NCBI GenBank assembly: GCA_018069525.1
Contig: JAGPUQ010000007.1
Coordinates: forward strand, 124,001 to 188,000
DNA from: Porticoccaceae bacterium
Lineage (GTDB): Bacteria; Pseudomonadota; Gammaproteobacteria; Pseudomonadales; Porticoccaceae
Length of the DNA: 64,000 bases
Direction of reading: 5' to 3'
A model generated the notes under the pieces. It made no database searches, was not told the DNA's origin, and saw only the letters and a program-made list of their open reading frames with translations. Shown piece after piece: positions 4,343-26,696 of the stretch. Every line of letters starts with the position of its first letter. Position 1 is the first letter of the stretch. The position numbers were made by a program, and so were the translations under genes.

Positions 4343-5344
4343 ATGCCTAAACCCGGCGATGCTGAATTTGGTGATACTGAACCTGGTAATCCCAGCCCCT
4401 ATATCGGCCGCTTTGCACCCTCGCCCACCGGCCCCCTCCACGCGGGTTCGCTGGTTGCGGCCCTGGCTAGTTATCTCGATGCTCGCGCTGCCCACGGCCA
4501 GTGGCTGCTGCGCATCGAAGACATTGACCCGCCTCGTGAAATTCCCGGTGCCAGCGATCTTATCCTGACTCAGCTCGACGCCCACGGCCTACATTGGGAC
4601 GGAACGGCGTGCTATCAAAGTCAGCGCCTGGAATACTACCTTAGCGCCCTGAAAAATCTCGCCGCACAAAATCTACTATTCGCCTGCACCTGTACCCGGG
4701 AACGGGTTCGCGCTAACGCTGGCCAGTACGATGGCAGCTGTCGAGCCCACCTGATACAGGCAAAGGACATCTCGATAGCAGCGGACAACGCAACACCGCC
4801 CAACAATGCGGCTGCTCACACCAGCACCTCCACCCGTATTCGCACCGACGCACACTCGCTCATCGCCTTCGACGATTTAATAAAGGGCCCCCAGCGTGTT
4901 GATTTACACACCGCAGGTGGTGACTTTATTGTGCGCCGCCGGGATCAGCTATTTGCCTATCAACTCGCAGTCGCGGTGGACGATGCCGAACAAAATATCA
5001 GTCATGTACTGCGCGGTGGCGATCTACTCGACTCCACGCCACGGCAAATTTTTCTGATCAACCTGCTGGACTCTCCCGCCACGCCACCTCGATACGGGCA
5101 TATCCCGATGATGGTCAACCAGGATGATCAAAAACTCAGCAAACAGCACCACGCTCCCAGCCTAGAGCTCGGTGCGCCGGGTGAAAACCTTTACCACGCC
5201 CTGGAATGGTTGAATCAGTCGCCTCCCCAGGCACTCCTCGGTGCAAATCCAGACGAAGTGCTAGATTGGGCCATCAACCACTGGGATCGGGGACAAGTCA
5301 CGTCAGTTGAACGTAAGCCCTACGACCTGGACAAACCATCTTAA
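4343..5344 (+). CDS. gluQ: Glutamyl-Q tRNA(Asp) synthetase
   Basis: GluQ (YadB) is a shortened glutamyl-tRNA synthetase that lacks the anticodon domain and attaches glutamate to queuosine in tRNA-Asp. The class I HIGH box appears as PLHAGSL (residues 31-37) and KMSKS as KLSKQ (264-268). The zinc site FACTC...GSC is present. The length, 333 residues, is a little above the usual 290-300. The extra residues come from an N-terminal stretch and a Thr/Ala-rich loop around 145-165. The first codons contain a 15-bp tandem duplication (GDAEF, GDTEP). dksA lies upstream, as usual. Confidence 0.95.
   Translation: MPKPGDAEFGDTEPGNPSPYIGRFAPSPTGPLHAGSLVAALASYLDARAAHGQWLLRIEDIDPPREIPGASDLILTQLDAHGLHWDGTACYQSQRLEYYLSALKNLAAQNLLFACTCTRERVRANAGQYDGSCRAHLIQAKDISIAADNATPPNNAAAHTSTSTRIRTDAHSLIAFDDLIKGPQRVDLHTAGGDFIVRRRDQLFAYQLAVAVDDAEQNISHVLRGGDLLDSTPRQIFLINLLDSPATPPRYGHIPMMVNQDDQKLSKQHHAPSLELGAPGENLYHALEWLNQSPPQALLGANPDEVLDWAINHWDRGQVTSVERKPYDLDKPS
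4358..4387. repeat. 15-bp tandem duplication in gluQ
   Basis: gatgctgaatttggt is followed directly by gatactgaacctggt, giving GDAEFGDTEPG in the dispensable N-terminus ahead of the first catalytic strand. Confidence 0.8.
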
Positions 5345-5439
5345 AAGTCTTCTTAAGAACACAAAAAGTTATATGCTTATGCCTAATTATTATAAAAGCT
5401 GTTTTGCCATTCGTCCGCGCCCGCGCTAATATGCTTGCA

Positions 5440-5573
5440 ACTTATACCAATAATTACTTTAGAGAATAACAATAAGACCGACAATAATAATAAAAATAAC
5501 GACTGGCTTGCTTGAGGTGTAAAAACCGACAGCCTATGAATAATACGGGGGAAGTCGAGAGACTTCCCTTTTT
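5440..5573 (+). ncRNA. Candidate A-rich small RNA upstream of pcnB (CrcZ-like position)
   Basis: The gluQ-pcnB gap (5345-5806) has no credible gene but ends in a strong hairpin terminator at 5549-5573. Ahead of it, 5461-5500 carries runs that fit the AAnAAnAA catabolite-activity motif bound by Hfq-Crc (aataacaa, aataataataaaaataa). In Pseudomonas the Hfq-sequestering RNA CrcZ is encoded just upstream of pcnB. Position, A-rich motifs and terminator together suggest a similar RNA. I see no convincing sigma-54 promoter and no adjacent cbrAB, and the 5' end is a guess. Confidence 0.35.
5549..5573 (+). terminator. Rho-independent terminator in the gluQ-pcnB gap
   Basis: GGGAAGTC pairs with GACTTCCC around a GAGA tetraloop and is followed by TTTTT. 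It is 230 bp upstream of the pcnB start, too far from gluQ (205 bp) to be a simple operon end. It may end the candidate small RNA. Confidence 0.85.
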
Positions 5574-5593
5574 CATTTGCGGCTTTCTTAAAT

Positions 5594-5629
5594 GCATATG
5601 TATTCGCATATGTATTGGCATATGCGAAT
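5594..5629. repeat. Three 12-bp repeats with GCATATG cores
   Basis: gcatatgtattc, gcatatgtattg and gcatatgcgaat follow one another directly. Each contains the palindrome CATATG, so the array could be an operator as well as a slippage product. It lies between the terminator and pcnB. Confidence 0.8.
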
Positions 5630-5647
5630 ATCGACATAACTTCGATG

Positions 5648-5680
5648 ACATAGCTCCAACATAGCTCCAACATAGCTCCG
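5648..5680. repeat. Three 11-bp tandem repeats upstream of pcnB
   Basis: Three copies of acatagctcca (the last ends in g) run head to tail, continuing the repeat-rich pcnB leader. Confidence 0.9.
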
Positions 5681-5806
5681 ACATGTCTCGTGCCAGCACC
5701 GGCCTGGACATCTCTTCCCCCTCACCCATTAAAATCAGCCAGTCTCCGCGAGGCTGGGGCCACCACTGTGCTAGAATCGCCGCTGCTCCGCGACCACCTG
5801 TCTAGA

Positions 5807-7201
5807 ATGATTAAACGTCTCAAAAAGCTACTTAGCTCAAAGTCCAACAAAGCCACTCAAGGGAAGGCCACTCAAGGGCCACGGCGAATTGCCGCCGACA
5901 GCCATGGCCTCCACCCCGGTACAATCAGTCACGGTGCCCGCGATGTGGTGGAAAAATTAAGTGCTGCGGGCTATCAAGCCTACGTAGTTGGCGGCTGTGT
6001 CCGCGACGCCCTGCTCGGCCAGCATCCGAAAGACTTCGATGTCGCTACCGATGCCACCCCCGAACAAGTCAAAACGGTATTCCGGCGCGCACGTATCATT
6101 GGCCGTCGCTTTAAAATCGTTCACGTCCGCTATGGCCGAGAAATTGTCGAAGTGACCACCTTCCGTGCACCTCATACCGGCTCTACTAGCCGCTCACCTG
6201 ACGCCCATAAAAAACCCCGCAAACGCGCTGAGCACTCCCAACGCAGCGACGCGGGAATGCTACTCAGAGATAACGTGTTTGGTTCTCTTGAGGAAGATGC
6301 TGTACGCCGGGATTTCACCATCAACGCGCTGTACTACCAGCCCGAAGAAAATTTACTGCTCGATTTCGTCAACGGCCTGGACGATATTGAAAATCAAACT
6401 CTACGTATGATTGGCGACCCGGCCACCCGTTACCGCGAGGATCCGGTACGCATGCTGAGAGCCGCACGCTTTGCGGCGAAACTCAATTTTCAAATGGATG
6501 CAGCGACCCTGGCCCCCCTGAGGGAATTGCACGGATTGATTGAAGAAGTGCCCGCCGCGCGGTTATTTGATGAAGTCTTAAAGCTGCTGATGAAAGGCGA
6601 TGCCCTCAGCACCTACGAGATCCTCACCGAGTTCCAGATTTTCACCCATCTGTTCCCCGACACCGCGCGCGCGATGAAAGACAACGACGCTTACGAAACC
6701 TTTATTCGTCAGGCGCTGACCAACACCGACCTGCGTATTCAGGCGAAACAGCACGTTACTCCCGCATTTTTGCTCGGCGCCCTGCTCTGGCCTGCCGTCG
6801 AGGTCCTGCGCGCCCAACATATCGCCGCAGGCATGCCGCCTGCCGTCGCCTTTAATAAGGCCTCTGCGGAAATTATTCGCCGCGAAGTGCAGCACATCGC
6901 CATTCCCAAGCGCTTTTCAGTACCGATGCGAGAAATTTGGGATTTACACCTGCGCCTGTCCAACCGGGGCGGCAACCGCGCCCTCCAGTTACTTGAGCTA
7001 CCCAGATTTCGGGCCGCCTATGACTTTGTCCTGTTGCGCGAACAGGCCGGCGAAGATCTCGGTGATCTCGGCGACTGGTGGACCACCTTTCAAGAGGCGG
7101 ACGAAGACACGCGGCAACAGATGAGTGCAGCGATAAAATCCGGCCCCAGGCGCAAACGCCGCAGTGGCCGCAAGCGCAGTGCGCAGCCGACATCGCCATA
7201 A
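5807..7201 (+). CDS. pcnB: Poly(A) polymerase I
   Basis: PcnB adds poly(A) tails to RNA 3' ends and so promotes decay. The nucleotidyltransferase core is clear: the VGGCVRDALLG loop near residue 62, the catalytic pair in KDFDVAT (about 76-78), RRDFTINALYY, and the GDPATRYREDPVRMLRAARFAAKL brace. The C-terminus is Arg/Lys-rich (SGPRRKRRSGRKRS), as in other PcnB. I use the ATG at 5807, because the open frame back to a GTG at 5690 encodes Pro/Leu-rich sequence unlike the family. That start lacks a good ribosome site; E. coli pcnB also initiates poorly. A 15-bp duplication encodes KATQGKATQG in the basic N-terminal tail. folK follows 48 bp later. Confidence 0.93.
   Translation: MIKRLKKLLSSKSNKATQGKATQGPRRIAADSHGLHPGTISHGARDVVEKLSAAGYQAYVVGGCVRDALLGQHPKDFDVATDATPEQVKTVFRRARIIGRRFKIVHVRYGREIVEVTTFRAPHTGSTSRSPDAHKKPRKRAEHSQRSDAGMLLRDNVFGSLEEDAVRRDFTINALYYQPEENLLLDFVNGLDDIENQTLRMIGDPATRYREDPVRMLRAARFAAKLNFQMDAATLAPLRELHGLIEEVPAARLFDEVLKLLMKGDALSTYEILTEFQIFTHLFPDTARAMKDNDAYETFIRQALTNTDLRIQAKQHVTPAFLLGALLWPAVEVLRAQHIAAGMPPAVAFNKASAEIIRREVQHIAIPKRFSVPMREIWDLHLRLSNRGGNRALQLLELPRFRAAYDFVLLREQAGEDLGDLGDWWTTFQEADEDTRQQMSAAIKSGPRRKRRSGRKRSAQPTSP
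5849..5878. repeat. 15-bp tandem duplication in pcnB
   Basis: aaagccactcaaggg is followed by aaggccactcaaggg, giving KATQG twice in the basic N-terminal tail. Confidence 0.9.
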
Positions 7202-25433: not shown

Positions 25434-25585
25434 GCTCAATCAACAAAATAAAGCCCTATACTCATAGGACAAAGGCGCTACCCACGCGTCGCTAAGTTAC
25501 ACAATAACTCGCCCCCACTATGCTACACTTCAAGCGTTTACAGCCTACGCCGCCCTGCCTACGCTGTAAGCTTAAACAACAAACC

Positions 25586-25713
25586 CCGAGCCCCGGAGTT
25601 CTAAGGCCAGAAACAGGCTAAGAACCCGGAGCCGGAATCATCCTCGGTGTATTTAGAGGATTAGATTCCCAGGGATCAGCAGGAAACTGCTCTTCCTCCC
25701 GACTTTGGAAAGG
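25586..25713 (+). promoter_or_regulatory. Molybdenum cofactor (Moco) riboswitch
   Basis: The moaA leader matches the Moco RNA family. CCCAGGG (25668-25674) and CCTCCC (25695-25700) flank a hairpin AGCAG-GAAA-CTGCT. GGAATCATCCTC pairs with GAGGAT and GATTCC just upstream. The end TTTGGAAAGGTG is almost the same as in the E. coli moaA leader, with the ribosome site GGAAAGG inside it. It should block translation of moaA when cofactor is plentiful. Confidence 0.85.
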
Positions 25714-25721
25714 TGTTTGAC

Positions 25722-26696
25722 ATGCTAGAAGACCGCTTCGGGCGCGAGTTTCATTACTTACGCCTATCTATTACCGATGTCTGCAACTTTCGTTGCAACT
25801 ACTGCCTGCCCGATGGCTACGAAGGCCGACCGGACGAGGCCTTCCTGTCGCTGGATGAAATTCGTCGCATCGCCTCGGCGTTTGCCGCTACCGGCACCTC
25901 CAAAATTCGTATCACCGGCGGAGAGCCCTCGGTGCGTAAGGATCTCACCGAGATTATTCGCACGGTAAAATCCACACCCGGCATCAATAAGGTCGCGATG
26001 ACCACCAATGGCTATCGCCTGCCGGAGCTGATCGATAGCTGGGCGGATGCGGGTCTGGACGCGCTCAATGTCAGCATCGACAGTCTCGACCCCGCCGTAT
26101 TTCAAGCCATTACCGGACACAGTCAGCTTCAGCAACTGCTGGATGGCCTTGAGCGCGCAGTCGAGCTGGGCATCCCCACCATTAAAGTCAATGCGGTGAT
26201 GCTGAAAGGCTTTAACGACAACCAGCTAGGCCGCTTTCAGGAGTGGCTAAAACATAAACCCATCACTTTGCGTTTTATCGAATTGATGCAGACCGGTGAC
26301 AACGCCAAATTTTTCGCGGAACGTCACGTCGCTGGCGACGACGTGCGCACGCAGCTGTTAAACACCGGCTGGACACCCACCCTCCGCGGAAAAGACGCCG
26401 GCCCCGCGCAGGAATTTCACCACCCAGACTACATGGGTCGCGTGGGCCTTATCATGCCTTACAGTAAAGATTTCTGTGCTACCTGCAACCGTCTGCGAGT
26501 CAACTCCACTGGTAAACTCCACCTCTGTCTGTTTTCCGAGAACGGCCTGGATTTGCGCCACCTCTTACAGGCAGACAGCCAGCAAGAGGAGTTAATTAAT
26601 TTTTTGCACACTCAATTAGCCGACAAAAAGGTCAGCCACTTTTTACAGGACGGTGATAGTGGCGGCACTCGCCATCTCGCCATGCTGGGAGGATAA
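25722..26696 (+). CDS. moaA: GTP 3',8-cyclase
   Basis: MoaA is a radical-SAM enzyme making 3',8-cyclo-GTP, the first step of molybdopterin synthesis. It has the SAM cluster CNFRCNYC near the N-terminus, the second cluster CATCNRLR...LHLC near the C-terminus, and the essential terminal Gly-Gly (MLGG). I choose the ATG at 25722. The in-frame GTG at 25713 is part of the ribosome site GGAAAGG of the riboswitch, as in E. coli. It heads moaABCDE-mobA; moaB starts five bases downstream. Confidence 0.98.
   Translation: MLEDRFGREFHYLRLSITDVCNFRCNYCLPDGYEGRPDEAFLSLDEIRRIASAFAATGTSKIRITGGEPSVRKDLTEIIRTVKSTPGINKVAMTTNGYRLPELIDSWADAGLDALNVSIDSLDPAVFQAITGHSQLQQLLDGLERAVELGIPTIKVNAVMLKGFNDNQLGRFQEWLKHKPITLRFIELMQTGDNAKFFAERHVAGDDVRTQLLNTGWTPTLRGKDAGPAQEFHHPDYMGRVGLIMPYSKDFCATCNRLRVNSTGKLHLCLFSENGLDLRHLLQADSQQEELINFLHTQLADKKVSHFLQDGDSGGTRHLAMLGG

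Follow-up and report, generated by a model that had tools for sequence, protein, structure and literature searches.

The gap between gluQRS and pcnB probably encodes a shortened CrcZ-type decoy of Hfq/Crc which, judged by sequence comparison, belongs to an order-wide lineage of such RNAs and in this clade has escaped control by CbrAB and apparently come under a sigma-70 promoter. The gap comprises 462 bases, positions 5345-5806 of the window (the whole 64 kb stretch of DNA that was analysed). In agreement with the sequence-only reading, no gene was found in it. The upstream neighbour gluQRS (4343-5344, + strand) was identified by an NCBIfam GluQRS match over the cut-off and by locus comparison, and the poly(A) polymerase gene pcnB (5807-7201, + strand; NCBIfam TIGR01942, 505 bits) begins with the ATG at 5807. 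An extended -10-like element, TGTGCTAGAAT, precedes pcnB at 5767-5777 (+ strand), and many relatives of the family have a similar element a little upstream of pcnB. The predicted CrcZ-like small RNA extends on the + strand from 5439 to 5573; its ends are approximate, the start following from the promoter and the end from the terminator. A small-protein reading of the segment was rejected: stop codons mostly interrupt the transcript's sense frames, and indels of every length distinguish the copies. The segment 5594-5683 is rich in palindromes (GCATATGTATTCGCATATGTATTGGCATATGCGAAT) at first and then has a short tandem repeat (ACATAGCTCCA); neither was seen in relatives. Elsewhere in the window, a Moco (molybdenum cofactor) riboswitch (25572-25731, 77.1 bits) precedes a moaA-like radical-SAM gene.

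An A-rich stretch with AAnAAnAA-like motifs had been noticed in the gap. It contains two AAN-repeat runs on the + strand, AATAACAATAAG at 5465-5476 and AATAATAATAAAAATAA at 5483-5499, both predicted to be Hfq distal-face sites. In 5000 dinucleotide-preserving shuffles of the gap the total length of AAN runs was matched once, and a run as long as AATAATAATAAAAATAA never occurred; AATAACAATAAG also exceeds the shuffles and falls in conserved alignment columns. The whole 64 kb contains five matches to AANAANAANAA, four of them within 5465-5499. A further run, CCAATAATTAC (5447-5457, + strand), appears decayed, its counterpart being intact in relatives of the genus. The runs are followed by a weak predicted hairpin (5505-5534, + strand), aligned with the site where relatives carry the GGGTGGGTTAG hairpin (columns 107-117 of alignment A2, made of the window's relatives). 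That hairpin is identical in all 12 of the other CbrAB-less copies aligned and is missing from the window copy, which is thus a reduced form. The strong terminator previously placed at 5549-5573 was confirmed with slightly wider limits, 5547-5573 (+ strand), consisting of a stem (5547-5570) and a T tail reaching 5573. For nine of its 12 base pairs there were relatives in which both sides had changed, so the stem is kept by compensatory changes despite altered sequence. Short perfect hairpins of varying sequence (e.g. AGTCAT-N7-ATGACT, GAAGC-N6-GCTTC and TGGCC-N4-GGCCA) were seen directly 5' of the A-runs at L061, L068, L085, L088, L087, L111 and L112. They lie near the expected 5' end, several of them in sigma-70-type copies, and are possibly 5'-protecting stem-loops.

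A plain DNA search among the relatives returned, besides the sequence itself, one weak match, and the comparison therefore relied on synteny and on a covariance model. It covered the regions upstream of pcnB in 52 genomes of the order, and the model was built from the sequences of 16 relatives, with the window sequence left out. The model scored 55.6 bits at 5439-5573, for an E-value of 2.5e-8 in the 64 kb, and this was the sole match in the genome. Matches with E up to 0.1 were obtained in 28 relatives, the best one lying at the pcnB locus in nearly all of them. Thus the covariance search that had been proposed as a check indicated an RNA conserved at its position. Most members of the window's own family share the same build of AAN runs, middle hairpin and GC-rich terminator. 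The AAN runs are also retained in other families, where the middle part is different. The RNA was kept in all ten other genomes of the CbrAB-less clade in which the pcnB locus was examined. In genus g7 (L061, L064, L068, L071) the A-rich RNA occurs twice in tandem before pcnB, and each copy has a separate promoter-like site and a separate terminator.

When the window RNA was scanned for existing Rfam families, only chance-level matches were found. Its score with the CrcZ model (RF01675) was 14.6 bits, below the gathering cut-off of 95 bits, which was reached by none of the 16 loci of the window's family. Two other loci, L084 (306.8 bits; the positive control) and L091 (110.8 bits), were recognised as CrcZ with the RNA at the corresponding place before pcnB, so the synteny is anchored to real CrcZ. 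The Rfam model misses the short forms described here. CrcZ of P. aeruginosa carries six A-rich Hfq-binding motifs, and by titrating Hfq it keeps the protein from ribosome-binding sites that are A-rich (PMC4063720). The window RNA resembles CrcZ (and CrcY and CrcX; Pseudomonas, Azotobacter) in lying directly upstream of pcnB, in having A-rich Hfq-type motifs, two of which are intact and beyond chance, in ending with its own intrinsic terminator, and in being encoded in a genome that also encodes Hfq and Crc. It differs in length and motif number (approximately 135 nt and two intact motifs versus 407 nt and six), and the cbrAB genes, the CbrB operators and the sigma-54 site are lacking. The neighbour on the upstream side is gluQRS instead of cbrB, and neither a -24/-12 site nor CbrB half-sites were found before the RNA. 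Because of the low score, the different promoter and the missing cbrB neighbour, the RNA was not filed as a member of the Rfam CrcZ family. The kinship suggested by the CrcZ-like location is nevertheless supported, as a conserved RNA precedes pcnB, its synteny is that of the CrcZ lineage, and Hfq and Crc are both encoded. The RsmY/RsmZ decoys of RsmA/CsrA offer an analogy only, that of an RNA soaking up a translational repressor and so lifting repression (a parallel drawn in PMC8871633); motif, protein and regulator are different, and no homology is claimed.

Reviews have called CbrAB and the cbrA-cbrB-crcZ arrangement exclusive to Pseudomonadaceae (PMC8871633; PMC6296734). In the open-access literature we found no report of this arrangement outside Pseudomonadaceae. 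Most other sampled families had the gene order gluQ-cbrA-cbrB-[A-rich RNA]-pcnB, and the full arrangement was also present in relatives from the window's own family; the clade to which the window belongs no longer has sensor, activator or sigma-54 promoter. In families f13 and f15 CbrB was found without CbrA. At L076, L077 and L079 (genus g4), L097 (f13) and L105 (f15) a cbrB with an intact AAA+ motif adjoins pcnB, and full-length CbrA was found nowhere in the genome. Where a genome has the RNA as well as a CbrB with GAFTGA, the A-runs are preceded at 20-59, mostly 27-33, bases by a -24/-12 site (TGGCA[CT]-N7-GC); G051 also has the site, and G042 has a near match only (TGGCAT-N7-GT). CbrB half-sites were counted with the consensus TGTTAC/GTAACA taken from PMC8871633. 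There were 19 against 2.4 expected in ten CbrB-containing genomes and two against 1.5 expected in nine CbrAB-less genomes, with none in the window. Sigma-54 site and CbrB operators thus accompany GAFTGA-bearing CbrB, and both are absent where it is missing. Since the tree holds only two to three independent transitions (about three events, two of them well supported), this clean correspondence of the sigma-54 site with a GAFTGA-bearing CbrB does not amount to a significant one.

A genome search for crc and cbrAB, another of the proposed checks, yielded a Crc homologue, no CbrA and no orthologue of CbrB. The crc homologue is situated between pyrE-like and rph-like genes, which is the order in Pseudomonas too. 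The encoded protein has 258 residues, and its best solved match is Crc of P. aeruginosa (4jg3, 8e-69). Hfq (L001, G000:C12:29182-29370) and sigma-54 are also encoded. For CbrA the search gave just kinase-domain matches of approximately 1e-16; as the genomes are mostly drafts, absence of CbrA is certain at the locus and strongly indicated, if not absolute, elsewhere. For the closest CbrB-like protein, identity with the CbrB of a relative is 41%, compared with 73-76% for the CbrB orthologues of two other relatives. Residue 25 of Hfq, which is Y in E. coli and P. aeruginosa, was F in all 28 genomes read. These include CbrB-containing ones, and an adaptation of Hfq specific to the CbrAB-less clade was thereby ruled out.

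The sequence-only reading had noted that cbrAB is not adjacent and that the RNA may be controlled differently. Both points held: the upstream neighbour is gluQRS, and in place of CbrAB, CbrB operators and sigma-54 promoter there is a conserved sigma-70-like promoter. Promoters were called as consensus matches. The window promoter, TTGCCA-17-TAATAT at 5404-5432 (+ strand), was not significant taken alone (p=0.14). When the copies were compared, the pattern TTTGC[CA]-N16..18-TAnnAT was present in nine of the 13 CbrAB-less copies, where shuffling gave a mean of 0.03 and at most 1, and in none of the ten sigma-54-type copies. In a tree of PcnB and GluQ the CbrAB-less genera g1 (that of the window), g5 and g7 formed one clade with an SH-aLRT support of 96. 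All its members have kept Crc; CbrAB, CbrB operators and the sigma-54 site are gone, and the RNA persists.

The sister clade (g6, g10, g11, g13) shows a different combination of losses. Crc is gone, no sigma-54 site precedes the RNA, and CbrB is either missing altogether or present without the sigma-54-contacting GAFTGA motif or without the whole AAA+ domain. The RNA persists in g6, in g10 and, by eye, in g13, and was not found at the locus in g11. The CbrB orthologues of L080, L081, L082, L085, L088, L086 and L087 lack GAFTGA or the AAA+ domain, and Crc is absent there as well; those without the AAA+ domain consist of the receiver and the DNA-binding part only. In G006, a genome of 1.3 Mb, everything was lost.

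These observations are consistent with the following mechanism. Transcription of 5439-5573 would yield a small RNA of approximately 135 nt, whose exposed AAN repeats would attach to Hfq at its distal face, Crc taking part as well. The RNA would thereby draw Hfq off mRNAs for transport and catabolism whose ribosome-binding sites are A-rich, presumably with fewer sites than CrcZ. Once the clade had lost CbrA and CbrB together with the operators and the sigma-54 promoter, a sigma-70-type promoter would have taken over. With such a replacement of the CbrAB/sigma-54 input, the decoy may be constitutive or may answer to another input. As just two AAN runs are intact and the GGGTGGGTTAG hairpin is missing, the window copy may be decaying.

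A candidate target of the window RNA, suggested by its upstream sequence, is agcS, which codes for an amino-acid carrier (TIGR00835) and has AACAACAAGAATAA 10-23 bases upstream of the ATG. With the agcS starts placed by tblastn, an A-rich motif near the start codon or ribosome-binding site was found in five of six CbrAB-less genomes and in one of seven CbrB-containing genomes of the family (Fisher p=0.03, relatedness ignored). Genome-wide, the five-unit AAN pattern was not enriched (21 matches against 28 in the reversed control), and most matches lay away from start codons.

Three other explanations were considered. The transcript could be an ordinary base-pairing small RNA dependent on Hfq, in which the AAN runs load Hfq, and the segment from these runs to the terminator, with GATGRRTTGCTA and, in relatives, the GGGTGGGTTAG hairpin, pairs with target mRNAs. 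The invariance of GGGTGGGTTAG in the 12 aligned copies fits this idea, since a pure decoy would not need it. However, the window copy has kept its AAN runs and terminator without that hairpin, and in the other families it is the middle part that varies while the AAN runs stay; we consider this explanation unlikely for the window, although RNAs of relatives that carry the hairpin may act by base pairing. That the RNA is a functionless, decaying CrcZ-type remnant left behind after the loss of CbrAB appears improbable. The erosion of one AAN run and of the conserved hairpin points in this direction, as does the model score of the window copy, which is among the lowest within the CbrAB-less clade. 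On the other hand, the promoter and two long AAN runs of this copy are intact, its terminator stem is perfect, Crc is retained, and the RNA was present in every one of the ten other clade genomes examined.

A cis-acting leader or attenuator of pcnB would also be expected to precede that gene in the same orientation and to end in a terminator. With 233 bases between terminator and pcnB, and a separate, conserved extended -10-like element for pcnB, this is very improbable; in addition, the RNA of CbrB-containing relatives has a sigma-54 promoter of its own, and general folding of the region showed no antiterminator. A shortened CrcZ-type decoy of Hfq/Crc, now under a sigma-70 promoter, is therefore the explanation that we prefer.

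For the order as a whole, we are somewhat inclined to think that carbon control by CbrAB, CrcZ and Hfq/Crc is ancestral to this entire gammaproteobacterial order and not a speciality of Pseudomonadaceae. The clade of the window would have dropped the input half and kept decoy, Hfq and Crc on sigma-70, and the sister clade would have lost Crc and the sigma-54-activating motif of CbrB and kept an A-rich, decoy-type RNA in several genera. This suggests that the carbon-control system is older, more widespread and more rewirable than described so far. If true, the two clades are natural dissections of the circuit. The presence of the CbrAB/RNA arrangement across most sampled families, together with a decoy that outlived its sensor, would open a comparative route to the essential parts of Hfq/Crc catabolite control. 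The same comparison asks what can replace CbrAB as the input, and whether the main target of the RNA is Hfq, as its retention where Crc was lost may indicate, or the Hfq-Crc complex.
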